This document shows, in pieces, positions 7,697 to 49,811 of a DNA stretch of 64,000 nt. The stretch spans positions 62,001 to 126,000 of the forward strand of contig NZ_CP015585.1 in assembly GCF_001941945.1 (NCBI RefSeq), given 5' to 3'. Made by a program: the position numbers and the translations under genes. How positions within the stretch are numbered: the first letter of the stretch is position 1; every line of letters starts with the position of its first letter. Source of the DNA: Roseomonas gilardii (GTDB lineage: Bacteria; Pseudomonadota; Alphaproteobacteria; Acetobacterales; Acetobacteraceae). The notes under the pieces were generated by a model. That model saw only the letters and a list, made by a program, of their open reading frames with translations, searched no databases and was not told where the DNA came from.

Positions 7697-8658
7697 CACA
7701 CCCACTCCAGCATGCGGGCACGGAAGGAAGCATCGGCCAACAGCGGACTGGTATCCAGCCGTCCGCCACCGTTCCGGCGCAGATAGGCCATGCAAGGCCC
7801 AACGGCGACGGTCAGGTCGTGCCGCTTCAGCACGGCCTCCGTAGCGGCTGCGGTATCCCAATCAGGTTCAGGCGCGCCAGGGCGATCCCAGAGGAGGGTC
7901 AGATAGGCGGCGACACAAAGAGCCCACTCGACACGGACCTTGCGGTGGTCTTCCGAGATGGTGTTGCTGCCATGCAGGCGGTAGCGCAGCATTATATCGT
8001 CCGACATCGCGATGCTCTGGCCTAGCGCCAGAAGGCGCAACGCGAAGTCGAGGTCGTGCGCGTAACGCAACGCGGCAAACTCTCCCACCTGTGGCAGGGA
8101 AGCGCGGCGTATGAGAAAATTCGATGTCGTCATCAGCACATTCGCGTTCACCAGGGTGGTACCGAAATCCGCACCCGCCTGATGGAATGCCCTGGCCTCC
8201 TGGTACCAGTTGTTGTCGATGGCCGCTCCTGAGCCATTCATGAAGGCGATGCCGGAGGCCGCCATTGCCGCATCGGGCCGTGCGTCCAGCAGCAGCACCA
8301 GCGTATCCAGCCGGCCAGGCAGCCAAGCGTCGTCCGAGTTCAAGATGGCGACGAACTCGCCACCACAGTCGCGAATTCCGGCGTTGATGGTGGCATGCGC
8401 GCCCTGATTGGCCTGCGTGCGAAAGCGAATTCGCGCATCGCGTCGCGCCAGATCCTGCATCACGCGCTCCGAATCGTCGGTGGAGCCGTCGTTGATCACG
8501 ATGACTTCCCGTACCACATCACCCTGCGCCAGCACGCTCTCGATGGCGGTGCCGATATAAGCGGCATGGTTATAGAGCGGCACCACAACGGAAACCCGCC
8601 CTGCCCCGGCCTTTGGCTTCTCTGCTGGCTGGCGCCTGAACAAACCGAACAGCGTCAG
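7696..8658 (-). CDS. GT2-family glycosyltransferase
   Basis: About 320 residues with the GT2 core VSVVVPLYNHAAYIGTAIES, VIVINDGSTDDSERV and the metal-binding LNSDDAWLPGRLD, then ALRYAHDLDFALRLLALG. Family members transfer a hexose from a nucleotide sugar to a lipid-linked acceptor at the membrane face. The start is uncertain: the frame stays open upstream inside the preceding gene, and near the junction only CTG (8658 or 8652) or TTG (8643) codons exist, with a GGAGG just upstream. A rare start codon coupled to the upstream TGA is the best reading. Confidence 0.85.
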   Translation of the reverse strand: MTLFGLFRRQPAEKPKAGAGRVSVVVPLYNHAAYIGTAIESVLAQGDVVREVIVINDGSTDDSERVMQDLARRDARIRFRTQANQGAHATINAGIRDCGGEFVAILNSDDAWLPGRLDTLVLLLDARPDAAMAASGIAFMNGSGAAIDNNWYQEARAFHQAGADFGTTLVNANVLMTTSNFLIRRASLPQVGEFAALRYAHDLDFALRLLALGQSIAMSDDIMLRYRLHGSNTISEDHRKVRVEWALCVAAYLTLLWDRPGAPEPDWDTAAATEAVLKRHDLTVAVGPCMAYLRRNGGGRLDTSPLLADASFRARMLEWV

Positions 8659-11600
8659 ATCCTCCGCTGCGCCAGGCGGCGCGCCAGGCCGGGCGGCACC
8701 CGTGTCACCAACGGCGCCGGCTCCGGCCGCACCGCCAACTGAGCAGGACCACTCAACAGCACGGCATGTTCTCCCAGGAAGCGGTCCAGTTCTGCCGGGC
8801 TGCGCACCGTGACGATGGTGTCCGTCCCGGCATAAAGCGCCGGCTGCGCCACCTTCAGCCAAGCATGGCCACTCTGCTCGCAAGCCAGGAAGTAGAGGCG
8901 CTCGATGGCATGGGCCGGGGTATGGTCGAGCTGAGCACCCTCAGCCGGGAAGTCGTCAAAGGAAAGGTTGAGGTCCAACAGAGGCTTGAGGGCGGCGGGA
9001 CGCGCCCAGAACATCGAGCCTGACGGGAAGTCCAGGGCCCGTGTCGGCGAGAGCTCGATCCCCATGCGTCGCGCCAGATCCTGCGCCACGTCAAAATTGC
9101 CATTCCAGCCCAGCCAACGGCGGATGGATTCATAATGCTGCGGCGCCACCATGCCGAGCTTCGGTAGCCGCGCGAAGGCATCAAAAATACTGGAGACCAC
9201 TTCCTGGGAACCAAGCAGATTCTCGAACAGGAAGCCGCGCCAGGGCGCCAGGAAGGACGCGTGCTCGGACTTCTTGGAATGCAGATGCAGCACCAGGTCG
9301 TACTTGGCATAGACATCGGCGAAACCCACGAGCTTAGGCGCGATATCGCGGCCACGGTTCGGCGTCACCCGGATGTCGAGATTCCCGCCGGTCCAGTCCG
9401 CGAAGGCCGGACGGATGGCAGCTGCCTTTCGCTCCGTGTCGGTGGACAGGAACAGGTCGGCCGGAATCGGCAGGTTGCGCAGGTAACCCCGCACTTCCAA
9501 CGCGATATCCGGGTGGAAGAGGTGGCAGATGACCGCCACGCGCGGCGCGGGAGCGGCGAGCGGTGGGAAGTCGAAGGGCAGGCAGAGGCTGAAATCGGAT
9601 TCTGACGGCCGGCTGGTCGGTGGCTCCTGCTCCTCGGGCGGCGGCGGGGGCAGGCGGCGCTCCGCCTCGGCCAGCCCCTCCGGGCGGCGTCGCACCAGCG
9701 GCATGGCAGCCACCAGGTCGCGCACCGTGCTGCTGAAGGCCTCCGGGGCGCATTCCCGGCGCACCCGTGCCAGTGCCTTCTCTCGCACATGCTCCCACAA
9801 GGCGCGGTCACCATGCAGGCGCGCGCAGGCAGCGGCGAAGGCGGCCGCATCGTCGGCGATCAGAACCTCCTGCCCGTCCTGCCATTCCAACTGGTTCGCA
9901 ATCAGCGAGGTCACCACCATCGGGATGCCCAGCATGGCTGCCTGATGCACCTTGTGCGGAATGCCGGCGCCCAGGCGGCTCGGCACCACCATCACCCGTG
10001 CATCGGCCAGGGCATCACGCAGATCCGCCACCATGCCCTTCAGTTCCAGTGCGTCGCCATCCAGCGCACGTACGCTGGGCGCCTGGGCCTGGCCTATCAC
10101 CGTCAGCTGCGTTTCGGCTCCCAGGGCGCGGCGGAGGCGCGGCAACACATCGTTCGCGAACCAGCGCACCGCATCGGCATTGGGCGCGTCGTCGGACTGG
10201 ATGGCACCCAGGAACACGATGCGGCTGCGGTCTTCGAAGCCGTCTGGCAGCGGCTCGTCATCCAGCGCATGCCCAAGGATATGGACATCCTTCGCGCCAT
10301 AGGTTTCCAGGGTTTCCCTCTCAGCCGGAGAAACCGAGATGACGGAATCCGCCAACCGGGTCAGCGCGACTTCATTGGCCACCATGGCATGGCGCTCATC
10401 CTCGGCCGGCGGGCTGCCCTGGGCGAGGCGGCGCTGCAGGGTGCGGGTAACGAACAGCGCCTCAGCATCATAGATCACGCGGGCATTGCCGATCAGGTCG
10501 CGGTCGGAGCCCACAGCCTGCTCAAAGAATGCCATGTTCGGTGGGCGGCAGACGATGATACCGTCGAAATGCCCACGCCTGGCGTTGAGATAGGTACGCA
10601 GCTGCGAGGCCTCAGCGCGGATCAGCACCTCGATGCGCTTGTCCAGCGCGCAGCGGACGCCGTGCCATGTTTCCTCATGGCGATGGATGGGAAACAGCGC
10701 GACCTGGGCGCCGGCCTTCACCAGTTCATGCAGCAGGCGATTGGCACGAGGGTAGCCGGTACCCAATTCCACTTTCGGCACGCGATCTTCGATCACCAAC
10801 ACGCGGGGGCCGGCCGAGCGCGCCGTGCGGGCGGCCAGCACATTGGCCGGGTCCAGCGAGAACTGCCCTTCCAGCCATGCACGATGGGTTTGGGTGAAGA
10901 TGCGATGGTTGGCCGCCTGCAGGGCCAGCGCCTCGGAGGAACTCGAGGAACTCCCAAATTCATAGTGGATGATCGCCACATCCGGGTCGAAGACCACCCG
11001 GCGCCCGCTTTCCCACAACCGGAGGCAATAGTCGGTCTCTTCATAATAAGCCGGCGCATAGCGCTCGTCGAAGCCGCCCAGCTCTCGCCAAGTCTCCATC
11101 GGTGTCAGCAGGAAGGCGCCGGAGCAATAGTCCACATCCCGCTGGAACATGACATCGACATCGTTCGGGTCCTGCCCCCGCCCGTAGCCAGAAGCGGCGC
11201 CATTACGCCAGATGATGGAGCCGGCCTCCTGTAGCGTGCCGTCTGGCAGGATGATGCGCCCGCCCACGGCGCCGATATCCGGTGCGGAGTCCAGCGTGAG
11301 CAAGGCTGCCTCGACCGCGCCTGGCAGCAGTTGCGCATCGTTGTTCAGGAGCAGGAGCGTGCGCCCGGTGGCTGCACGTGCGGCGTGGTTCACGCCCTTC
11401 AGGAAATGCAGGTTGGTTTCACTGCGGATGATGGTAGCGCCTTCGATCCTGTCCAGCAGCGCCACCGTGCGATCGGTGGAATTGTTGTCGTGGATCAGAA
11501 CCTCGACGCTCGGCCCTTGCCCGGACAGGGTCTCCATGATGGAGCAAAGGCAGCCGAAGGTAAGTTCCGCTTGGTTGTAGAGCACCAGCACGATGCTGAC

Positions 11601-39335: not shown

Positions 39336-39485
39336 TCACGTCGTCATTCCAGCGCTGCGCATGAGCAGTCGGAACAGCAACGCGGCAATCGCGAGACCTC
39401 CGACGCTCAACGTCCAGATCAGGACCAGCCAGCCGACCCGCTGCGACCAGAGCCGGAGGGACGGAGAGGAGTGGCTCAGCCTCAA
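39336..39485 (-). CDS. DUF2474 small membrane protein of cytochrome bd operon
   Basis: 49 residues from a TTG that overlaps the cydB stop (TTGA). After LSHSSPSLRLWSQR comes one hydrophobic helix VGWLVLIWTLSVGGLAIAAL LFRLLM. Single-helix DUF2474 peptides are known downstream of CIO-type cydAB genes, analogous to CydX. Likely an oxidase-associated subunit; the role is inferred from position and shape. Confidence 0.7.
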   Translation of the reverse strand: MRLSHSSPSLRLWSQRVGWLVLIWTLSVGGLAIAALLFRLLMRSAGMTT

Positions 39486-40489
39486 TGGTATCCCTCGCCG
39501 GCTTTCACCTTGCCGCGGAAGACGTAGTACGACCACGCGGTGTAGGCGAGAATGAACGGGATGATAAACAGGGCGCCGATCAGCGCGAAGCCCATGCTCT
39601 GCGGCGGCGCCGCGGCGTCCCAGATCGAGATCCCGGGCGGAATGATATTGGGCCACAGGCTGATGGCGAGACCGGTGTAGCCCAGGAACAGCAGCAGCAG
39701 AGACAGGAGGAAGGGCGCGGCGTGACTGTCGCGGCCGAGCGCCTTCCACAGGCCGATCGCCGCCACCAGCACCAGCACGGGCACCGGCGCGAAGAACAGC
39801 AGGTTCGGCAGCGCGAACCAGCGGGCCGCGACCTCGGCATGCGCCAGGGGGGTCCAAAGGCTGACGACCAGGATGGCCACGAGCAGGGCGATCATCACCG
39901 GCCGCCCCAGGGCCCGCATGCGGGCCTGGAGTTCGCCTTCGGTCTTCATCACCAGCCAGCTGGCACCCAGGAGCGCGTAGGCGACCGGGAGGGCAAGGCC
40001 GGTGAACAGGCTGAAGGGCGTGAGCCAGCCGAACAGGCCCCCCACATAGGCCCCGCTCTCAAGCGGAAACCCGTTGATGAAGGCGCCCAGCGCAGCCCCT
40101 TGCGAGAAGGTGGCGATGTAGGACCCCCAGGCGAAAGCCTTGTCCCAGAAGGGCCGGTGCGCCTCGTCGGCCTTGAAGCGGAACTCGAAGGCGACGCCGC
40201 GCCAGATCAGGCCGGCAAGCATCAGCACGAGCGGGAGGTAGAGAGCACTCAGGATGGTCGCATAGGCCAGCGGAAAGGCGGCGAGCAGCGCCGCCCCGCC
40301 CAGCACCAGCCAAGTCTCGTTTCCGTCCCAGACCGGTGCCACGGTGTTGACCATCGTGTCCCGGTCGCCCCGATCCGCCACGAAGGGGAACAGGATCCCG
40401 ATCCCCAGGTCGAAGCCGTCCATGACGACATACATCATCAGCCCGAAGCCGATGATGATCGCCCAAATGAGGGGAAGGTCGATGCCCAT
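39482..40489 (-). CDS. cydB: Cytochrome bd-type ubiquinol oxidase subunit II
   Basis: 335 residues; ATG 40489 follows GAGGAGG with good spacing, better than GTG 40495. LPLIWAIIIGFGLMMYVVMD GFDLGIGILFPF and VAPVWDGNETWLVLGGAALL AAFPLAYA are the subunit II signatures; eight or nine membrane helices. With CydA it forms the quinol oxidase that reduces O2 with high affinity and is often cyanide-insensitive. It starts 12 bases after cydA. Confidence 0.97.
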   Translation of the reverse strand: MGIDLPLIWAIIIGFGLMMYVVMDGFDLGIGILFPFVADRGDRDTMVNTVAPVWDGNETWLVLGGAALLAAFPLAYATILSALYLPLVLMLAGLIWRGVAFEFRFKADEAHRPFWDKAFAWGSYIATFSQGAALGAFINGFPLESGAYVGGLFGWLTPFSLFTGLALPVAYALLGASWLVMKTEGELQARMRALGRPVMIALLVAILVVSLWTPLAHAEVAARWFALPNLLFFAPVPVLVLVAAIGLWKALGRDSHAAPFLLSLLLLFLGYTGLAISLWPNIIPPGISIWDAAAPPQSMGFALIGALFIIPFILAYTAWSYYVFRGKVKAGEGYH

Positions 40490-40501
40490 GATCACACCTC
40501 C

Positions 40502-41911
40502 TCAGACGATGGCCGGATCGATGTCGTCGGGTGCGGCCGAGAGCGGCCGCGCCGGGCGCAGCACCTGGCCCTTGTCCTGCGCGTGGTCGTCGCCGACCGT
40601 CGGACCCTTGGCGACCAGCTTGATCATGTAGCTGATGCCGGTGCCGAAGACCGCGCAGTACATGACGAGGAACACGGCCAGGGTCGCCGAGAGCGCGAGG
40701 GCCGAATGGTTCGACACCGCATGCTCGGTCCGCATGACGCCATAGACCACCCAGGGCTGGCGTCCGATCTCGGTGGTGAACCACCCGGCCAGGATGGCGA
40801 TCAGGCCGCTCGGTCCCATCAGCATCGCGAAACGCAGGAAGAGCCTGGAGCCATACAGCCTGCCGCCACGGCGCAGCCACAGGCCCCAGACGCCCAGCAG
40901 CAGCATCAACATGCCGAGGCCCACCATCACCCGGAACGACCAGAAGACGACGGTGGAGTTGGGACGGTCCTCCGGCGCGAACTCGCTGAGGCCCCGGAAC
41001 TGGCCGTCGAGGCTGTGGGTGAGGACCAGGCTGCCGAGGCGGGGGATCTCCACCGCGTAGCGTGTCGTCTCCGCCGCCATGTCGGGCCAGCCAAACAGGA
41101 TCAGCGGCACACCCTGTCCTGGCTCGTTCCGCCAGTGCCCCTCCATGGCGGCGATCTTCGCCGGCTGATGCTCCAGGGTGTTCAGGCCATGAGCGTCGCC
41201 GACGGCGATCTGGATGGGCGCCACGACGAGCACCATCCACATCGCCATCGAGAACATGGTGCGCACGGCCGGTGCGTTCCGCCCGCGCAGCAGGTGCCAG
41301 GCCCCCGAGGCACCGACGAACAGCGCCGTCGAGAGATAGGCGGCGATGGTCATGTGCACGAGGCGGTAGGGGAAGGACGGGTTGAAGATGACCTTCAGCC
41401 AATCGACCGGCACGACGCGGCCGTCGATGATCTCAAAACCCTGCGGCGTCTGCATCCAGCTGTTCGAGGCCAGGATCCAGGTCGCGGAGATCAACGTGCC
41501 GAGGGCGACCATCAGCGTTGCGAAGAAGTGGAGGCCTGGACCGACCTTGTTCCAGCCGAACAGCATGACGCCGAGGAAGCCGGCCTCCAGGAAGAAGGCG
41601 GTCAGCACCTCATAGGCGAGCAGCGGGCCGGTGATGCTGCCGGCGAAGGAGGAGAAGTAGCTCCAGTTGGTGCCGAACTGGTAGGCCATGACCAGCCCGG
41701 AGACGACACCCATGGCGAAGTTGACGGCAAAGATCTTCGACCAGAAATGATAGAGGTCCCGAAAGAGGCCGTCCTTCTTCCAGAGCCAGAGGCCCTCCAG
41801 CACCGCGAGGTAACTGGCAAGCCCGATGGTGATCGCCGGGAAGATGATGTGGAAGGAGACGGTGAAGCCGAACTGGATGCGGGCCAGCTCGAGCGCGGTC
41901 AGTCCGAACAT
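40502..41911 (-). CDS. cydA: Cytochrome bd-type ubiquinol oxidase subunit I
   Basis: 469 residues, shorter than E. coli CydA, as in the short-Q-loop CIO branch. Haem ligands are visible: His21 in FGFTVSFHIIFPAITIGLAS, the His in PSFPYRLVHMTIAAYLSTAL and the Met in QPWVVYGVMRTEHAVSNH. GVVSGLVMAYQFGTNWSYFS is also conserved. Strong GGGAGG before ATG 41911. The operon lies directly downstream of the MocR regulator on the same strand. Haem demand links it to the divergent hemA. Confidence 0.97.
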   Translation of the reverse strand: MFGLTALELARIQFGFTVSFHIIFPAITIGLASYLAVLEGLWLWKKDGLFRDLYHFWSKIFAVNFAMGVVSGLVMAYQFGTNWSYFSSFAGSITGPLLAYEVLTAFFLEAGFLGVMLFGWNKVGPGLHFFATLMVALGTLISATWILASNSWMQTPQGFEIIDGRVVPVDWLKVIFNPSFPYRLVHMTIAAYLSTALFVGASGAWHLLRGRNAPAVRTMFSMAMWMVLVVAPIQIAVGDAHGLNTLEHQPAKIAAMEGHWRNEPGQGVPLILFGWPDMAAETTRYAVEIPRLGSLVLTHSLDGQFRGLSEFAPEDRPNSTVVFWSFRVMVGLGMLMLLLGVWGLWLRRGGRLYGSRLFLRFAMLMGPSGLIAILAGWFTTEIGRQPWVVYGVMRTEHAVSNHSALALSATLAVFLVMYCAVFGTGISYMIKLVAKGPTVGDDHAQDKGQVLRPARPLSAAPDDIDPAIV

Positions 41912-42044: not shown

Positions 42045-43424
42045 CTACACGACCGCCCTCGTGGTGAGGGAGGGTTGTGACAGGAGGCTCACGAGCTGGG
42101 TCAGTCCGTCCTCCAGCACGCCGCGATCGGGCGCGACGCCGAGCGAGATCCGCACGGCCTCGATGGGATGCATTGTCACGGCAAAGGCGGCGCTCGGAAC
42201 GATGGAGACGCCGGCACGATCGGCGTGATCGGCGAAGTCCGAGGCGCGCCAGTGTTCGGGCAGCTGGAGCCAAAGGTGATGCCCGTGCGGATCGGCGGCA
42301 AAGCGGAGGTCTGTCAGGATCGTCGCCGCGAGCTTCTGACGCTCGACGTTCTCAATGCTGATGGCGCGGCTGAGCTGGTCCAGGGTGCCGTTGGCAATCC
42401 ACCGGCTGGCCAGGGCTGACATGAGCGGTGGCGCCATCAGGACGGTGGTGCGCAGAATGCCGGCAAGCCTGAGAGCACCAGCGGCGCTCGGCGCGGCCAC
42501 ATAGGCGACGCGCAGGGCGGGCGTGGCGCATTTGGACAGCGTGGCGATGTGCCAGGTGATATCACCGGCGAGCTCCGCCATCGCGACGGTCCGCTCGGGT
42601 CGCAGCGGCGCGTAGGGATCATCCTCAATGATGGCGACCTTATGCTTGCGGGCGAGCGTCGCGATCGCGCGGCGCCGGTCCTCGGGCAGGGTGACCGTGG
42701 TGGGATTGTCGATGCTCGGGATCAGGTAGAGCGCCTTGGGCGCCTTCTCCCGGCAGGCCTTCTCAAATGCGTCAGGACGGATGCCGTGCTCGTCCATGGC
42801 GAGTGGCTCCAGGACGAGCCCCCGCTGGGCGGCCACCGCCTTGAAGCCGGGATAGGTCATCGCCCCAGCCACGACCACGTCGCCCTTCTGCAGCAGAAGC
42901 TCGCAGATGGCGAACAGGGCGCACTGCGCGCCGCCCGTGACCACGACCCGATCCCCGGTCAGGCCGGGCAGGCGAGGCGCGAGCCAGCAAGCGGCGGCAT
43001 GCCGGTCCTGGGCCGCGCCAGTGCTCTCCTGATAGTGGAGACTGAGCATCCCGCGCGGGCTGTCGAGGATTCCCACGATGCCCTGGGGGAAGATCTTCTT
43101 GAAATCGGCCACGGAGGGCTGCGGCGGGATGTTCATGCTGAGGTCGATCAGCGGCGCGGGCTCGACGGCGGGACCGCTACCCTTGGGCCGCTCGCTGACA
43201 TAGGTGCCGCGCCCGGCCTGGGCCTCGATGAGGCCCCGCCGGCGCGCCTCGTTGAAGGCCCGGGTTACCGTGGTCAGGTCAACGTCGAGTGCTTCGGCGA
43301 TGGCGCGCTGTGGTGGCAGCCGCTCACCCCGCGCGACCCGGCCGGACCTCACGTCCGTCTCGAGCGCCTCCACGATCCCCAGGTACTTCATGCGAGCGCC
43401 GTCGTTCAGCCACGGGTGCCACAT
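42045..43424 (-). CDS. MocR-type regulator (GntR helix-turn-helix fused to PLP aminotransferase domain)
   Basis: 459 residues. A winged helix lies at about 12-80 ([40 protein letters not shown]). The fold-type I aminotransferase domain follows: [52 protein letters not shown] and the PLP-lysine region [19 protein letters not shown]. Such proteins sense PLP adducts of amino compounds and are often transcribed divergently from their target. Here the divergent target is hemA, whose enzyme uses PLP and glycine. Two palindromes lie between the two genes. Confidence 0.93.
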
Positions 43425-43437
43425 CGCGCCCTCACTT

Positions 43438-43458
43438 TGTATGGTCTAATGCCATACA
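43438..43458. promoter_or_regulatory. Operator-like palindrome 1, MocR/hemA intergenic region
   Basis: TGTATGG-N7-CCATACA is a perfect 7-bp inverted repeat, followed by TTA. It ends 14 bases upstream of the regulator's ATG, the position expected for autoregulation. A related box lies 78 bases away and the half-site GCCATACATTA recurs at 47191-47201. Confidence 0.7.
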
Positions 43459-43515
43459 TTACTAGCATAGGCGGGTTGAGGATGGAAGCAGATCTCGCGG
43501 CATGCAGGGGTTCAT

Positions 43516-43536
43516 TGTATGCTTCTATGGCGTACA
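43516..43536. promoter_or_regulatory. Operator-like palindrome 2, upstream of hemA
   Basis: TGTATGC-N7-GCGTACA, 6 of 7 paired positions, again followed by TTA. It shares the spacing and outer bases of box 1 and lies 80 bases before the hemA start, suitable for control of the hemA promoter. Confidence 0.65.
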
Positions 43537-43615: not shown

Positions 43616-44839
43616 ATGAACGTCGACGCCGCTCTCCAGAGCCTGGTCACCGAGATGAAGCAGGACGGTCGCTACCGCACCTTCATCGAGCTGGAGCGCC
43701 TCGCCGGCGCCTTCCCGGTGGCCCTTTGGCACCACCCGGATGGGGGCACGCGACGCGTGACGGTCTGGTGCAGCAATGACTATCTCGGCATGGGTCAGCA
43801 CCCCGATGTCCTCGCCGCCATGCACCAGGCGATCCACCGCTGCGGCGCCGGCACGGGCGGTACCCGGAACATCTCGGGGACCAACCGCCAGCATGTGGCG
43901 CTGGAGGCCGAGCTGGCCGAGTTCCACGGCAAGGAGGCGGCGCTGATCTTTACCTCCGGCTGGATCTCGAACCTGGCCGCCTTGGGCACGCTGGGCCGGC
44001 TGCTGCCCGGCTGCGCCATCTTCTCCGACGCGCTCAACCACAACTCGATGATCGAGGGCATCCGCCGCTCGGGGGCGGAACGCTTCATCTTCCGACACAA
44101 CGACGTGGCCCATCTGGACCAGCTGATGGGGAGCATCGATCCCGAGCGGCCAAAGATCGTCGCCTTCGAGAGCGTCTACAGCATGGATGGCGACATCGCG
44201 CCCGTCGCGGCGATCTGTGACGTCGCCGAGAAGTACGGTGCGATCACCTACCTCGATGAGGTGCATGCGGTCGGGCTGTACGGCCCAGGCGGCGGCGGGA
44301 TCGCCGAGCGTGAGGGGATCGCCCACCGGCTAACCCTGATCGAGGGCACGCTGGCCAAGGCCTTCGGAGTGATGGGAGGCTATGTCGCCGGCCCCGCCCT
44401 CATGATGGACGCGATCCGGAGCCTGGCTGACAGCTTCATCTTCTCGACCTCGCTCGCCCCTCATCTGGCGGCAGGCGCGCTTGCCGCGATCCGGCACGTG
44501 AAGGCCCATCCGGAGATCCGCGCCCGCCAGGCCGAGAACGCCAGCACCCTCAAGTCGATGATGAAGGCGGCTGGCCTGCCGGTGCTCGACACGCCCACAC
44601 ACATCCTGCCGGTGATCGTGGGTGAGGCGCATCTGTGCCGTCGGATCAGTGAGCTGCTGCTCGAGCGGCACGGCATCTATGTCCAACCGATCAACTACCC
44701 CACGGTGAAGCGTGGCGAGGAGCGGCTGCGCATCACGCCGACCCCGTTCCACACCACGACGCAGATGCGCGATCTCGTCGATGCGCTGGTCTCTGTCGGC
44801 GAAGAGGTCGGCTGGACCCCTGTGCGCCGGGCTGCCTGA
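43616..44839 (+). CDS. hemA: 5-aminolevulinate synthase
   Basis: 407 residues, the family length. [40 protein letters not shown], the PLP-contacting [20 protein letters not shown] and the Schiff-base lysine in [17 protein letters not shown] near residue 247 are all present. [21 protein letters not shown] is typical of ALAS. It condenses glycine and succinyl-CoA to ALA, the first haem precursor, in the cytoplasm. It is probably an extra copy beside a chromosomal one; divergent from the MocR gene and followed after 31 bases by an MFS gene. Confidence 0.97.
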
Positions 44840-44870: not shown

Positions 44871-46409
44871 TTGACTGTTCACCACCCCAGTGAGAGCCGC
44901 GCGATCAACCCGCTGCCCATCCTGCTCACCGCCTCGACGGGCTGCGCGATGACGGTGCTCGACACCAACATCGTGGCCATCGTGCTGCCGACGATCGCGC
45001 GCGACTTCCGGGCGAGCTTCGCCGAGATCGAGTGGGTGATCAGCACCTACGTCCTGTGCTTCGCCTCCCTGCTTCTGCCGGCGGGCGCCATCGCGGATCG
45101 GTTCGGACGGCGGCGGGTGTTCCTCTCGGGCATCGGCGCCTTCGCGGCCGCCTCCCTGCTGTGCGGACTGGCACCCTCGGCGACGGCGCTCTGCCTCGCC
45201 CGGGCCCTCCAGGGTGCCAGCGCCGCCTTTCTGCTGGCCCCAGCCCTGGCGGTTATCGGCCACACCTTCCACGGCGAGGCCGAGCGCAATCGTGCCTGGT
45301 CGATCTGGGGTGGCATGATGGGCCTGACTATGGTCCTGTCACCCGTGCTGGGTGGCCTGATCGCGCACGCCCTCGGTTGGCGCTGGGCCTTCTACGTCAA
45401 TGTCCCGATCTGCGCCGCGCTCGCGGCGGCCACCCTTCTGCTGGTGCAGGAATCCAGGGACGCCGCGGCGCGCAGGCTCGACCCGGCCGGGATCCTGTCC
45501 TTCTCCGCCGCCATGTTCGGGCTGACCTGGGGGTTGATCAATGGCCAGGCGCATGGCTGGACCTCCCCGAGTGCCCTGACCGGCTTCGCCGTGGGGATCT
45601 GCGGCGGCGGCGTCTTTGTCACCGCCGAGCGCCTGCAGGAGCGGCCCATGCTAGACCTGGGCCTGTTCCGCCTCCCGCGCTTTGTCGGCGCCGTCTGGGC
45701 CATGTTCGCCTACGCCGCCTGTGCTCAGGTGATGGCCTCCCTTCTGCCGCTCTTCCTCCAGAACGGCCTCGGCCGCACGGCGCTGCAGGCCGGCATCGCC
45801 ATGCTGCCCTTCGCGCTCGCGATGCTCACCTTTCCTTATGTGGGCCGGGCCCTCGGCCGCCACCTCAGCTCGGCCGGCGTCCTCACCACCGGCCTGATCG
45901 TTGTGGGCCTCGGCAACGGGCTGACCGCCTGCGGCGCCAGCCTCGGCATCGGGTGGACGGTCATTCTTGGCATGGCAATCCTGGGCAGTGGGGGCGGCCT
46001 GCTGAACGGTGAGACCCAGAAGGCGATCATGAGCGTGGTGCCCCACGAGCGCGCGGGCATGGCATCCGGGATCAGCACCACCGCGCGGTTCTCGGGCATT
46101 CTCCTGGGGTTCGCGACGCTCAGCGGTGTCCTTGCCACGGTGGTCCGATGGACGCTCGCTGAGCCGGGCCGTTTCGCGCCGGGCTTTGCGGACTCGGTCG
46201 CGGCAGGCGACCTGCCGAACGCGGTGGCTGGGCTGGCCGGCATCGAGCGCGCCCGAGCGATCGAGCACGCCCATGCCGCCTATTCGGCCGGCTTTTCCGC
46301 AGCCCTCGCGGCGGCGGGGGTGGTCGCGGTGATCTCCGCCGTGATCGTCAGCCGGCTGTGCAGGGCCGGCGTTCCCGCGAGCCAGGACACGCTACGCCGC
46401 AAGGCGTGA
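44871..46409 (+). CDS. MFS transporter, DHA2 (14-helix) family
   Basis: 512 residues from TTG 44871, with GGGAG seven bases upstream; an open extension into hemA is ignored. Motifs: MTVLDTNIVAIVLPTIARDF in helix 1, GAIADRFGRRRVFLSGIGAF (motif A) and LARALQGASAAFLLAPALAV IGHTF. About 14 hydrophobic segments fit the DHA2 drug/proton antiporters of the EmrB/QacA type. Close coupling to hemA suggests export of ALA, a porphyrin or a toxin aimed at haem synthesis; substrate is unknown. Confidence 0.92.
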   Translation: MTVHHPSESRAINPLPILLTASTGCAMTVLDTNIVAIVLPTIARDFRASFAEIEWVISTYVLCFASLLLPAGAIADRFGRRRVFLSGIGAFAAASLLCGLAPSATALCLARALQGASAAFLLAPALAVIGHTFHGEAERNRAWSIWGGMMGLTMVLSPVLGGLIAHALGWRWAFYVNVPICAALAAATLLLVQESRDAAARRLDPAGILSFSAAMFGLTWGLINGQAHGWTSPSALTGFAVGICGGGVFVTAERLQERPMLDLGLFRLPRFVGAVWAMFAYAACAQVMASLLPLFLQNGLGRTALQAGIAMLPFALAMLTFPYVGRALGRHLSSAGVLTTGLIVVGLGNGLTACGASLGIGWTVILGMAILGSGGGLLNGETQKAIMSVVPHERAGMASGISTTARFSGILLGFATLSGVLATVVRWTLAEPGRFAPGFADSVAAGDLPNAVAGLAGIERARAIEHAHAAYSAGFSAALAAAGVVAVISAVIVSRLCRAGVPASQDTLRRKA

Positions 46410-46572: not shown

Positions 46573-47049
46573 TCAATGAGGCAGAGCGGCACGGCCGGCT
46601 TCGGCGATGGCGACGTCATGCTGCGGCGTCTCCGCCGACACGCCCACGGCGCCGACGACCTGTCCACCTGCAACCAGCGGCAGGCCGCCAGCCATCATCA
46701 CGAAGTGCGCGGTGATGGCTGCAGGCCGTTGGCCATTGATCGCCTCCTCGAAGACGCTGGTCGGACGCCGGAACATGGCCGCCGTTCGGGCCTTGCCCGC
46801 GGCGATCTCCGCGGCGGCTGGCCCGGCCCCGTCCAGGCGTGCCATCGCGATCAAGGCGCCCCCCGCATCCGCGACGGCGATCGCGCCATGCCAGTCCTGC
46901 CGCCGCGCCTCAGCCTCGGCCGCCGAAAGGACGGTCCGGGCCGCCTCCAGGGTGAGGACGGGCTGGCTGGGCAATTCCGCCGCGAAGACCGTGCCGGGCA
47001 CAATGGCCGGCAGGATCGCCAGCGCGGCGAGCGAGAGACGACGGGACAT
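46573..47049 (-). CDS. Secreted GlcG/HbpS-family haem-binding-like protein
   Basis: 158 residues with signal peptide MSRRLSLAALAILPAIVPGT VFA. The GlcG/HbpS (DUF336) domain shows HGAIAVADAGGALIAMARLD GAGPAAAEIAAGKARTAAMF and AGGLPLVAGGQVVGAVGVSA. Relatives bind haem, cobalamin or corrinoids, or are of unknown use. A Thr instead of the more usual His or Lys occurs near RRPTS, so haem binding is not assured. The promoter carries three half-sites like those before hemA, which ties it to the same regulator. Confidence 0.85.
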   Translation of the reverse strand: MSRRLSLAALAILPAIVPGTVFAAELPSQPVLTLEAARTVLSAAEAEARRQDWHGAIAVADAGGALIAMARLDGAGPAAAEIAAGKARTAAMFRRPTSVFEEAINGQRPAAITAHFVMMAGGLPLVAGGQVVGAVGVSAETPQHDVAIAEAGRAALPH

Positions 47050-47130
47050 GACGAACTCCTGGCGAGGTGGGAGAGATCGGGACAGCGGACAACGGCCCCA
47101 GCCTTGGCTGGCCCGGTATCCAGGCCGTCA

Positions 47131-47201
47131 AGCCATACAAGCCAAAACTGGAGCCATACGCAAGCCGGACGTTATCCAACCATGGCGAGCTAATGTATGG
47201 C
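47131..47201. promoter_or_regulatory. Three GCCATAC half-sites upstream of the HbpS-like gene
   Basis: GCCATACA at 47132-47139 and GCCATACG at 47153-47160 are direct repeats 21 bases apart (two helical turns). TAATGTATGGC at 47191-47201 is the exact inverse of GCCATACATTA in the MocR/hemA palindrome. MocR regulators such as GabR bind direct repeats, so this arrangement is plausible for the same protein. Confidence 0.6.
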
Positions 47202-47294
47202 TCAACTGTGTGGCTGAGGAGTTGCTGCGAAGTACCCAATGCGTCGATCGTCTCGGATCTTGTTGTGGTTCGAGCGACATCGTAGAAGCCCGGC

Positions 47295-47609
47295 ATGTCG
47301 AAGAAATTCCTTACCGACGTCATCCAGCAATCGTCAGGTCTGACGGGCGTTGCCTCGGGACAAGTGGCAGCGGATCTGATCGCAGCCATCAAGGCCGAGA
47401 TCATCGAGACCGGGCGATTCTCCCTCCCCGACTTCGGCTCGTTCACGGTGCGGGAGACGCCGAAGCGCAGTGCGCTCAATCCGCGCACCGGCGAGAAGGT
47501 CGCCGTGAAGGCCGGCGCTACTGTCAAGTTCAAGCCATCGCCGTCTCTGAAAGAAGCGGCCTTTGCCGGCGTCAAGAAGGCGAAGCGGAAGGCTGCCAAG
47601 GCAGGCTAG
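47295..47609 (+). CDS. HU/IHF-family DNA-binding protein
   Basis: 104 residues. GRFSLPDFGSFTVRETPKRS ALNPRTGEKVAVKAGATVKF is the HU beta-arm signature with the Pro at its tip; the C-terminus has a lysine-rich tail (KKAKRKAAKAG). It packs or bends DNA and may assist plasmid replication or recombination. It converges on, and overlaps by 4 bases, the truncated helicase gene. Confidence 0.93.
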   Translation: MSKKFLTDVIQQSSGLTGVASGQVAADLIAAIKAEIIETGRFSLPDFGSFTVRETPKRSALNPRTGEKVAVKAGATVKFKPSPSLKEAAFAGVKKAKRKAAKAG

Positions 47610-48906
47610 GACGACCGCACCGAAGCTGGCCGCCCGACGGGCGGTTTCCACTCGCTCCGCTGCCGCGCGGACCAGGCGTACCGGGCATCGTCCTCGAGCA
47701 GATGGAGATGGTCGGCGAGGCGGTTGCGCTCCATCCAGCCGATCGCCGCCTGCAGCTCCGCGAGGGTCATCTGCGCCCGGCTCTTGTTGCCGCTGACCCG
47801 CTTCAGGCAGGCATTGTAGCGGTGATACAGGCCAGGACCGGCGACGCCGCCTCGTAAGCCCGCTCGTCCTGCCTCGTCCTCAACCGCCTGAGCCGCCACC
47901 ATCTCACCCAGCCGCGCCCGGAGCCGCCGTTCGGCGACCGAGGGAGGCTCGAGCATCTCGCCCTGTGCCTCCTCCTGCTCCGGCCGCCGCATGGCTAACT
48001 CCGGACCTGGTCGCAGTGTGTCGAAACGCATGGCAAGGGCGTTGGAGGCGAGGGGGGTGATCCCCTCCTTCGGCGGCGGCAGCTGGTCCCGCAGCCAGAG
48101 CGGCAGCGCATCCTGGCCGCGGCGGGGCTTCGGCCGCCTGGCGAGCGTGCCCTGCTCCGTCTCCATGCGGCGGCGGAACTGCGCGAAGAGCGGGTCGTCC
48201 GGGTGGAACACCAGGGCGCGCTGATCTCCATAAGGCCCGGCATGCGGGTCCACCCGCGTCGCCCGGGCCACCATCTGCTCCAGCCAGGGACGCGAGCGGA
48301 TATGCGTCAGGGCCGCGACGACGGCGACTTCCGGCGCGTCCAGCCCCTCATAGGCCATGGCGACCGTGACCAGGATCGAGGGCTCCGCCCGTAGCCGGAA
48401 GGCGGCGAGGACCTCGTGGGCCCGCGGGGTGTCGGAGGTCGCAATCTGCGCCACCTCCTCCGCCTGGGCGGGCGGGATCCAGCGACGGATCACCTCGAGG
48501 TAGTGCTTGGCGGCGGCCTGATCCGGCGCCACCACTAGCAGTTTCCCTAGGCCTCGTGCAGCCTCGCCCGGGGCCAAGCCACGGTGCTCCCGGCGGCGGG
48601 ATCGCAGGTCCCGGACCGCCAGAAAAGTCTCGCGGAGCAACGCCTCGGCGAAACCGGTGCGCAGCGCCGTGAAGAGGGCAGGGCGCGTGGTCTCCTCGGG
48701 ATAGGCCCCGGCGAGGCGATGCGGGCCCAGTTCGACGCCCTCCTCGTCGCGCCAACTGGCTTCGCCATCCAGCGCCCCGAAGGTGACGGGCAGCACGGCT
48801 TTTTCGGCCAGCGCCTGCGCGCGCGAATAGCCAATCACAGCCCAACCAGGGGCGTCGAGTTCGACCTCGCGGGTGCGAGCCTTCGGTCCCTTGCGGTAGG
48901 GCACGC
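47606..48906 (-). pseudogene. Superfamily II helicase, N-terminally truncated
   Basis: The frame encodes a helicase C-terminal half: KLLVVAPDQAAAKHYLEVIR RWIP, ILVTVAMAYEGLDAPEVAVV, and motif VI-like RSRPWLEQMVARATRVDP. It continues with a long Arg/Gln-rich tail. The Walker A and DExx motifs are missing because the 5' part is replaced at about 48907 by a transposase fragment. The remaining frame has no start of its own. Confidence 0.75.
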
Positions 48907-49238
48907 ACAGCGAACATGAGGGCGTGCGCGAGCTGGTGCGCGGCGAGATGCAGACGCCCCTATTCAAGCGGTCGATGCGGCTGCGTCGGGGCGTCGAGCG
49001 GGTGTTTGCCGATGCCAAGGGTAAGCGGGGGTTAACCCGTTTGCACCTTCGCGGCCTGCGCGGTGCCGAGGAAGAGTTTCTGTTGGGCGCGGCCATTGCC
49101 AATCTCGTGCTATTGGCCCGTTCTGACGCACGACCGGCACGGACCCGCCGCCGGCCCCCGGTGCCGGAACGGATCGACCACATGGCCCGGATCAGTCGGG
49201 GCCGGTTCGAGCAATCCTACTACGCGACGATCTTCTGA
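48907..49238 (+). pseudogene. IS1182-type transposase, C-terminal fragment
   Basis: HEGVRELVRGEMQTPLFKRS MRLRRGVERVFADAKGKRGL and GAAIANLVLLAR match the last third of IS1182-family transposases, including the catalytic-Glu region VERVFADAKG. The rest of the element and both ends are gone. It interrupts the helicase gene, which reads in the opposite direction. Confidence 0.75.
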
Positions 49239-49244
49239 CGCTGG

Positions 49245-49811
49245 TTAGCCGGGTTCGCGCTCGGCCGCAGGGAAGTGGCGATAGAAGGTGGAACGGCCGA
49301 CCTGTAGCAGCTTCGCGACCTTCGCGGGTTTGTCGCCGGCCTTGAGCAGCTTGCGGGCGGTGTCGAGCATGTCGGGCGTCATGACCGACTTGCGGCCTCC
49401 GCCCGTACCGCCCTTTGCGCGCGCCGCTGCCAAACCGGCAATCGTCCGCTCCTTTATAAGTTCGCGCTCCATTTCCGCGACGGAGGCGAGGATATGGAAC
49501 AGCAGCCGGCCGGATGGGGTGGCCGTGTCGAACCCGTCCGTCAGGGACCGGAAATCAATTTTGCGAGCGGACAAGTCGGCCGCCAGTTCGATTAGGCCCC
49601 CAATCGAACGGCCCAGGCGATCGAGCTTCCATATCACGAGCGTATCGCCAGCCCGCACGAAATTGAGAGCTTCGGTCAGACCGGGACGTTTCAACTTCGC
49701 GCCACTCACCTTGTCGGTGAACAGCTTCTCGCACCCGGCCTTGGTCAGCGCATCGGTTTGTAACGTCAGGTCCTGATCGGCGGTCGAGACACGCGCATAA
49801 CCAACCAGCAT
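49245..49811 (-). CDS. Serine recombinase, Tn3-type resolvase
   Basis: 188 residues. The catalytic domain opens MLVGYARVSTADQDLTLQTD with the nucleophile Ser in RVST, and has LVIWKLDRLGRSIGGLIELA and RLLFHILASVAEMERELIKE RT. A helix-turn-helix closes the chain (KPAKVAKLLQVGRSTFYRHF). It resolves cointegrates or inverts DNA at a res-type site, perhaps in 49812-50015, where short TATTTyGGGAA repeats occur. No Tn3 transposase is present. Confidence 0.95.
   Translation of the reverse strand: MLVGYARVSTADQDLTLQTDALTKAGCEKLFTDKVSGAKLKRPGLTEALNFVRAGDTLVIWKLDRLGRSIGGLIELAADLSARKIDFRSLTDGFDTATPSGRLLFHILASVAEMERELIKERTIAGLAAARAKGGTGGGRKSVMTPDMLDTARKLLKAGDKPAKVAKLLQVGRSTFYRHFPAAEREPG

Follow-up and report, generated by a model that had tools for sequence, protein, structure and literature searches.

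The window, meaning the whole stretch of 64,000 nucleotides that was analysed (C3:62001-126000), lies on C3, a contig of 265 kb in a genome of five contigs and 5.41 Mb. Among plasmids it is matched best by Roseomonas mucosa pTT14-3, at ~98% identity, so that the host is probably R. mucosa or a very near relative. Within it, a gene for a MocR-type regulator adjoins the two genes of a bd oxidase and is followed by hemA, a transporter gene and a gene for an HbpS-like protein. The features that the analysis deals with are as follows:

39482..40495, minus strand: cioB/cydB, bd oxidase subunit II
40502..41911, minus strand: cioA/cydA, bd oxidase subunit I
42045..43424, minus strand: MocR-type regulator, 459 aa, GntR HTH plus aminotransferase fold, with the LSK lysine motif
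43438..43458: mocR-hemA operator palindrome 1, TGTATGGTCTAATGCCATACA, conserved before mocR in orthologues
43516..43536: mocR-hemA operator palindrome 2, TGTATGCTTCTATGGCGTACA
43616..44839, plus strand: hemA, 5-aminolevulinate synthase (TIGR01821, above cut-off)
44871..46409, plus strand: MFS transporter, DHA2-like
46573..47049, minus strand: HbpS-like gene (PF03928), 158 aa
47133..47139, minus strand: direct box 2, TGTATGG on the HbpS sense strand
47154..47160, minus strand: direct box 1, CGTATGG on the HbpS sense strand
47191..47201, plus strand: inverted box, TAATGTATGGC, the 11-mer of the first-pass annotation
47295-47609, divergent from HbpS: HU-like gene

The plasmid MocR matches PF00392 (3.8e-15) and PF00155 (1.4e-18), that is, a GntR HTH fused to a fold-type-I aminotransferase, and the PLP-lysine motif TLSKC...PALR is present and aligned across homologues, so that PLP binding is predicted. 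Because the gap between cioA and mocR holds no boxes, the two genes are probably co-transcribed, and the oxidase itself is predicted from the annotation of its relatives to be of the CIO type. The HbpS-like protein gives a PF03928 profile match of 7.3e-32 that spans positions 1–126 of 128, the full domain; its N-terminus is hydrophobic and by eye resembles a signal peptide, which suggests that it is probably secreted, and haem binding or degradation is suggested by the family name. Between this gene and the HU-like gene lie 245 bp (47050-47294), in which no terminators were found and no sigma-70-like promoters were recognised, the latter being a point that we counted against the explanation developed below. 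On the far side of the HU-like gene, a 525-aa frame without a Pfam match, whose counterpart in pTT14-3 is annotated as a DEAD/DEAH helicase, passes at ~48.9 kb into an apparent transposase fragment and then a resolvase-like gene, and this stretch (47606-49811) is possibly an insertion scar.

The first-pass annotation had reported that an 11-mer from palindrome 1 recurs inverted before the HbpS-like gene, with two GCCATAC copies exactly 21 bases apart, and both observations hold: all 11 bases are found at 47191-47201, and the GCCATAC copies stand on the plus strand at 47132-47138 (direct box 2) and 47153-47159 (direct box 1). GCCATACATTA has only two sites in the whole 5.41-Mb genome, one in the mocR-hemA operator (43451-43461, plus strand) and one in the HbpS upstream region (47191-47201, minus strand). 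Because the reversed control of the 11-mer also occurs once in the whole genome, a match somewhere in the genome is unsurprising; the count by itself is unremarkable, and it is the placement that is remarkable. When the 245-bp region was simulated 20,000 times with a first-order Markov model, the 11-mer arose in 2 runs, in line with the annotation's opinion that a chance match there is unlikely, while at least three GTATGG/CCATAC hexamers arose in 5 runs and the direct pair at 21 bp in none. A genome-wide count of box clusters had been proposed as a check, and we obtained these statistics by pattern searches and from a 420-kb sample of the same genome. In that sample, three hexamers within 75 bp were present upstream of HbpS only, and the same was true of a direct hexamer pair at 21 bp; genome-wide, CGTATGG-N14-TGTATGG before HbpS was the sole match to TGTATGG-N14-TGTATGG at ≤1 mismatch. 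The inverted box lies 40 bp upstream of the direct pair. A complete hemA-type palindrome (TGTATG-N9-CATACA, ≤2 mismatches) is absent before HbpS, and a palindromic layout of the hemA type was thus ruled out for this site, which consists of a direct repeat and an inverted box instead.

The 11-mer had been described as a half-site of palindrome 1, a description that we replace with a broader one. In 20 promoters of alphaproteobacterial MocR, ALA-synthase, CioAB and DUF983 clusters, with the window left out, there were 57 TGTATG/CATACA boxes against ~3.5 expected, and the profile derived from 60 boxes outside the window is (A/T)TGTATG(G), by which the box at 47191 scores 17.7 and that at 47133 scores 14.4. 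Since the box is enriched in promoters of MocR clusters and CCATACATTA is found again in other loci (e.g. L098 and L019), TGTATGG / CCATACATTA is, from sequence comparison, a generic box of the regulator family with its flank and is not peculiar to palindrome 1. The pTT14-3 plasmid has another base at 47201, so that the outermost G of the 11-mer is not kept there, and the core of the box is intact. The mocR-hemA intergenic region itself holds two 21-bp palindromes of the form TGTATG-N9-CRTACA, the two best such sites of the genome, and orthologues of 64–73% identity (Sinorhizobium, Agrobacterium, Kozakia, Rhizobium) have a similar palindrome ahead of mocR, at about −34 to −37. Among 385 genomes of the class, exact TGTATG-N9-CATACA matches had no tested cluster gene within 1.5 kb, except for the window's own. 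An isolated palindrome is therefore not diagnostic, whereas the direct repeat is.

A search for mismatch-free TGTATG-N15-TGTATGG gave 14 matches across 200 family genomes and 4 across 15 from the genus, of which 5 and 3, respectively, fell in the short gap between MocR and a divergent DUF983 gene. With the R. mucosa plasmid L092 added, there are nine Acetobacteraceae MocR/DUF983 loci with the 21-bp direct repeat, and their common footprint is ATTGTATGTAT-N10-ATTGTATGGCAAG. The site before HbpS matches TGTATG-N15-TGTATGG, the operator of the L092-type MocR, with one mismatch, which falls in box 1, and its flanks differ from the nine-locus consensus; this mismatch and these flanks we counted against our explanation. 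The 21-bp direct repeat, on which the first-pass annotation touched only briefly, is the strongest evidence for an operator before HbpS, and not the 11-mer.

Gene order points in the same direction as the boxes. Few genomes have an HbpS orthologue (5 of the 15 searched in the genus), and with a cut-off of 1e-38 the window's own HbpS stood alone among the 385 genomes of the class. The close orthologues examined (72–87% identity) adjoin MocR and DUF983, and some of them CioAB as well. HbpS stands beside MocR in L092, L093/L106, L098, L105, L107 and L108, and in four of the nine direct-repeat loci (L092, L105, L107, L108) it comes next after DUF983. The HbpS-like genes of more distant relatives, one from Rahnella (59%) and one carried by a Microvirga plasmid (54%), have other neighbours. 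In an R. gilardii locus, an MFS transporter that is 71% identical to the window's transporter downstream of hemA lies directly upstream of HbpS. Because orthologues in other loci are linked to MocR, DUF983 and the MFS gene, membership of HbpS in this gene set is supported by synteny as well as by the boxes. The operator might also be thought to serve the divergent HU-like gene, with HbpS as a bystander, since both genes border the region that holds the boxes, which stand 94–162 bp ahead of the HU start; we regard this as very improbable, because a comparison of the cluster loci showed the HU gene solely in the 98%-identical pTT14-3, whereas several other loci link HbpS to MocR and to boxes. 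Little credence, likewise, is given to the idea that short A+T-containing words have recurred by chance in a G+C-rich genome, or that the site is a non-working remnant of a MocR-DUF983-HbpS operon that has since been lost. To judge from the control, about one occurrence of the 11-mer per genome is to be expected, and box 1 and the flanks depart from consensus, but against this stand three boxes, their exact 21-bp spacing, the rarity of the direct pair and of three boxes in the simulations, and a gene that is independently linked to MocR.

Thus, we predict that a MocR-type operator, made up of two direct boxes and one inverted box, lies in the HbpS promoter, and that HbpS belongs to the same MocR regulon, a membership that is well supported because the boxes are rare in the genome and enriched in MocR clusters, the 21-bp repeat is conserved and the linkage of HbpS with MocR is recurrent. 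Of the annotation's prediction that HbpS belongs to the hemA regulon, membership is upheld by the box enrichment, the repeat and the linkage, whereas control by the same regulator as hemA is only likely, since the genome has a second MocR with the same core helix (C2:644575-645939). The core recognition helix [VI]D[LF]TT[VI][TS]RA[FY] is common to all MocRs compared, including both resident ones, and this near invariance was counted in favour of the operator. The L092-type MocR, which owns the 21-bp repeat elsewhere, is absent from the genome, whose MocRs are just 43–46% identical to it, and the known sites of the window MocR's own group are palindromes or alternating boxes; both points were counted against. 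The contig scan of the genome with MocR gave one distant match only. The C2 locus (L109, about 7800-9970) has DUF983, with just ~47 residues of CioA detected downstream, and looks like a remnant cio locus.

The boxes could be a working operator whose main user is the C2 MocR, or both MocRs, since the C2 protein shares the core recognition helix and has 90% identity to the MocR encoded in the HbpS-containing cluster of R. gilardii. The promoters of the C2 MocR and of its R. gilardii relative have a different box layout, however, and the plasmid MocR (42045-43424) is encoded 3 kb from HbpS and has the 11-mer in its own operator, so that we hold use by the C2 MocR to be possible and rather unlikely. 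The plasmid MocR is the likeliest user of the boxes.

According to the survey of MocR regulons by Suvorova and Rodionov, two direct boxes with one inverted box are the most frequent operator structure (32% of MocR regulons) and spaced direct repeats are typical (PMC5320631). The HbpS site has this commonest layout, which we counted in favour of the operator. Unlike the present case, neither hemA nor cyanide is mentioned in the survey's main text, and the TGTATGG motif may have been listed earlier in its supplements (PMC5320631). In Pseudomonas pseudoalcaligenes CECT5344, mocR adjoins the cio cluster, and production of the cio proteins is constitutive in a MocR mutant, for which the paper cites unpublished proteomics and a growth phenotype (PMC8567248); such repression of the cio cluster was counted in favour of a repression model. 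The CECT5344 cluster includes SerC, HisC, ArgD, DapA, CysI, Nit4 and MocR (PMC11049912). As in Pseudomonas (PMC8567248, PMC11049912), mocR stands beside cioAB in the window, and SerC, HisC, DHDPS-family, sulfite-reductase-like and nitrilase genes of the Pseudomonas list are mirrored in alphaproteobacterial clusters, closely so in Agrobacterium sp. T29. The window cluster differs in adding a dedicated ALA synthase, an MFS transporter and the predicted secreted HbpS-like protein, and in the operator boxes described here from sequence. The T29 plasmid cluster (L094, 4242-27651) bears orthologues of the window's MocR and HemA; it comprises MocR, a nitrilase, CioAB, SerC, an aminotransferase, a DHDPS-family gene, HemA, a sulfite-reductase-like protein and HisC, with TGTATG boxes before mocR, hemA, SerC and a carboxymuconolactone-decarboxylase gene. 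MocR/HemA/CioAB clusters in Alloyangia pacifica (L097, 2571-15185) and Methylorubrum extorquens AM1 (L099) adjoin Nit6803-type nitrilase genes and a second MocR.

Pseudomonas aeruginosa MpaR is a MocR-type protein able to mediate a cyanide response (PMC10790758). Like the window regulator it has a predicted PLP pocket, and the gene under its control encodes a terminal oxidase and belongs to a cluster induced by cyanide; unlike our model it is an activator, with the putative site ATCTGAT and ccoN4, not cioAB or hemA, as its target (PMC10790758). The window HbpS shares the family PF03928 / DUF336 with HbpS of Streptomyces reticuli (PMC3754957) and is apparently secreted, whereas its linkage to MocR, CioAB and DUF983 sets it apart, and functions within PF03928 vary, e.g. 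the formaldehyde sensor EfgA (PMC8153426). Literature searches on HbpS with cyanide, on DUF983 and on cyanide in Roseomonas yielded nothing direct.

By analogy with these systems we infer the direction of control, the cyanide signal and the haem-related role of HbpS, and the MocR-HbpS gene set is probably cyanide-responsive. The direct boxes, 21 bp or two helical turns apart, would be bound together with the inverted box by the PLP-dependent plasmid MocR, which would most likely repress mocR-cioAB, hemA-MFS and HbpS. Cyanide, or its PLP adduct on MocR, would lift this repression, and the released cell would make the cyanide-insensitive bd oxidase, with HemA giving extra ALA for haem, while secreted HbpS may bind, protect or otherwise handle haem or iron in the envelope. 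Taken as a whole, a MocR-type operator before HbpS, membership of HbpS in the mocR-cioAB and hemA-MFS regulon, and cyanide-relieved repression by the plasmid MocR make up an explanation that we consider quite probable.

The prediction would extend a regulon of a known kind, that of the MocR-cio clusters, by a secreted member that was not expected there, HbpS, whose operator layout is also that of a sister MocR group. For the MocRs of alphaproteobacterial CioAB/ALA-synthase clusters, our comparisons provide a defined box, TGTATGG, and a regulon open to experiment, and they tie a predicted secreted HbpS-family protein to a probable cyanide-tolerance programme on Roseomonas plasmids, some from human skin or clinical isolates. 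If this is confirmed, it would give HbpS and DUF983 a functional setting. More speculatively, Roseomonas accessory plasmids might carry a MocR-controlled, cyanide-responsive module for respiration and haem, in which the secreted HbpS-like protein would be a dedicated member for handling or sensing haem or cyanide, and the direct-repeat operator of another MocR subfamily would have been captured by the resident MocR.
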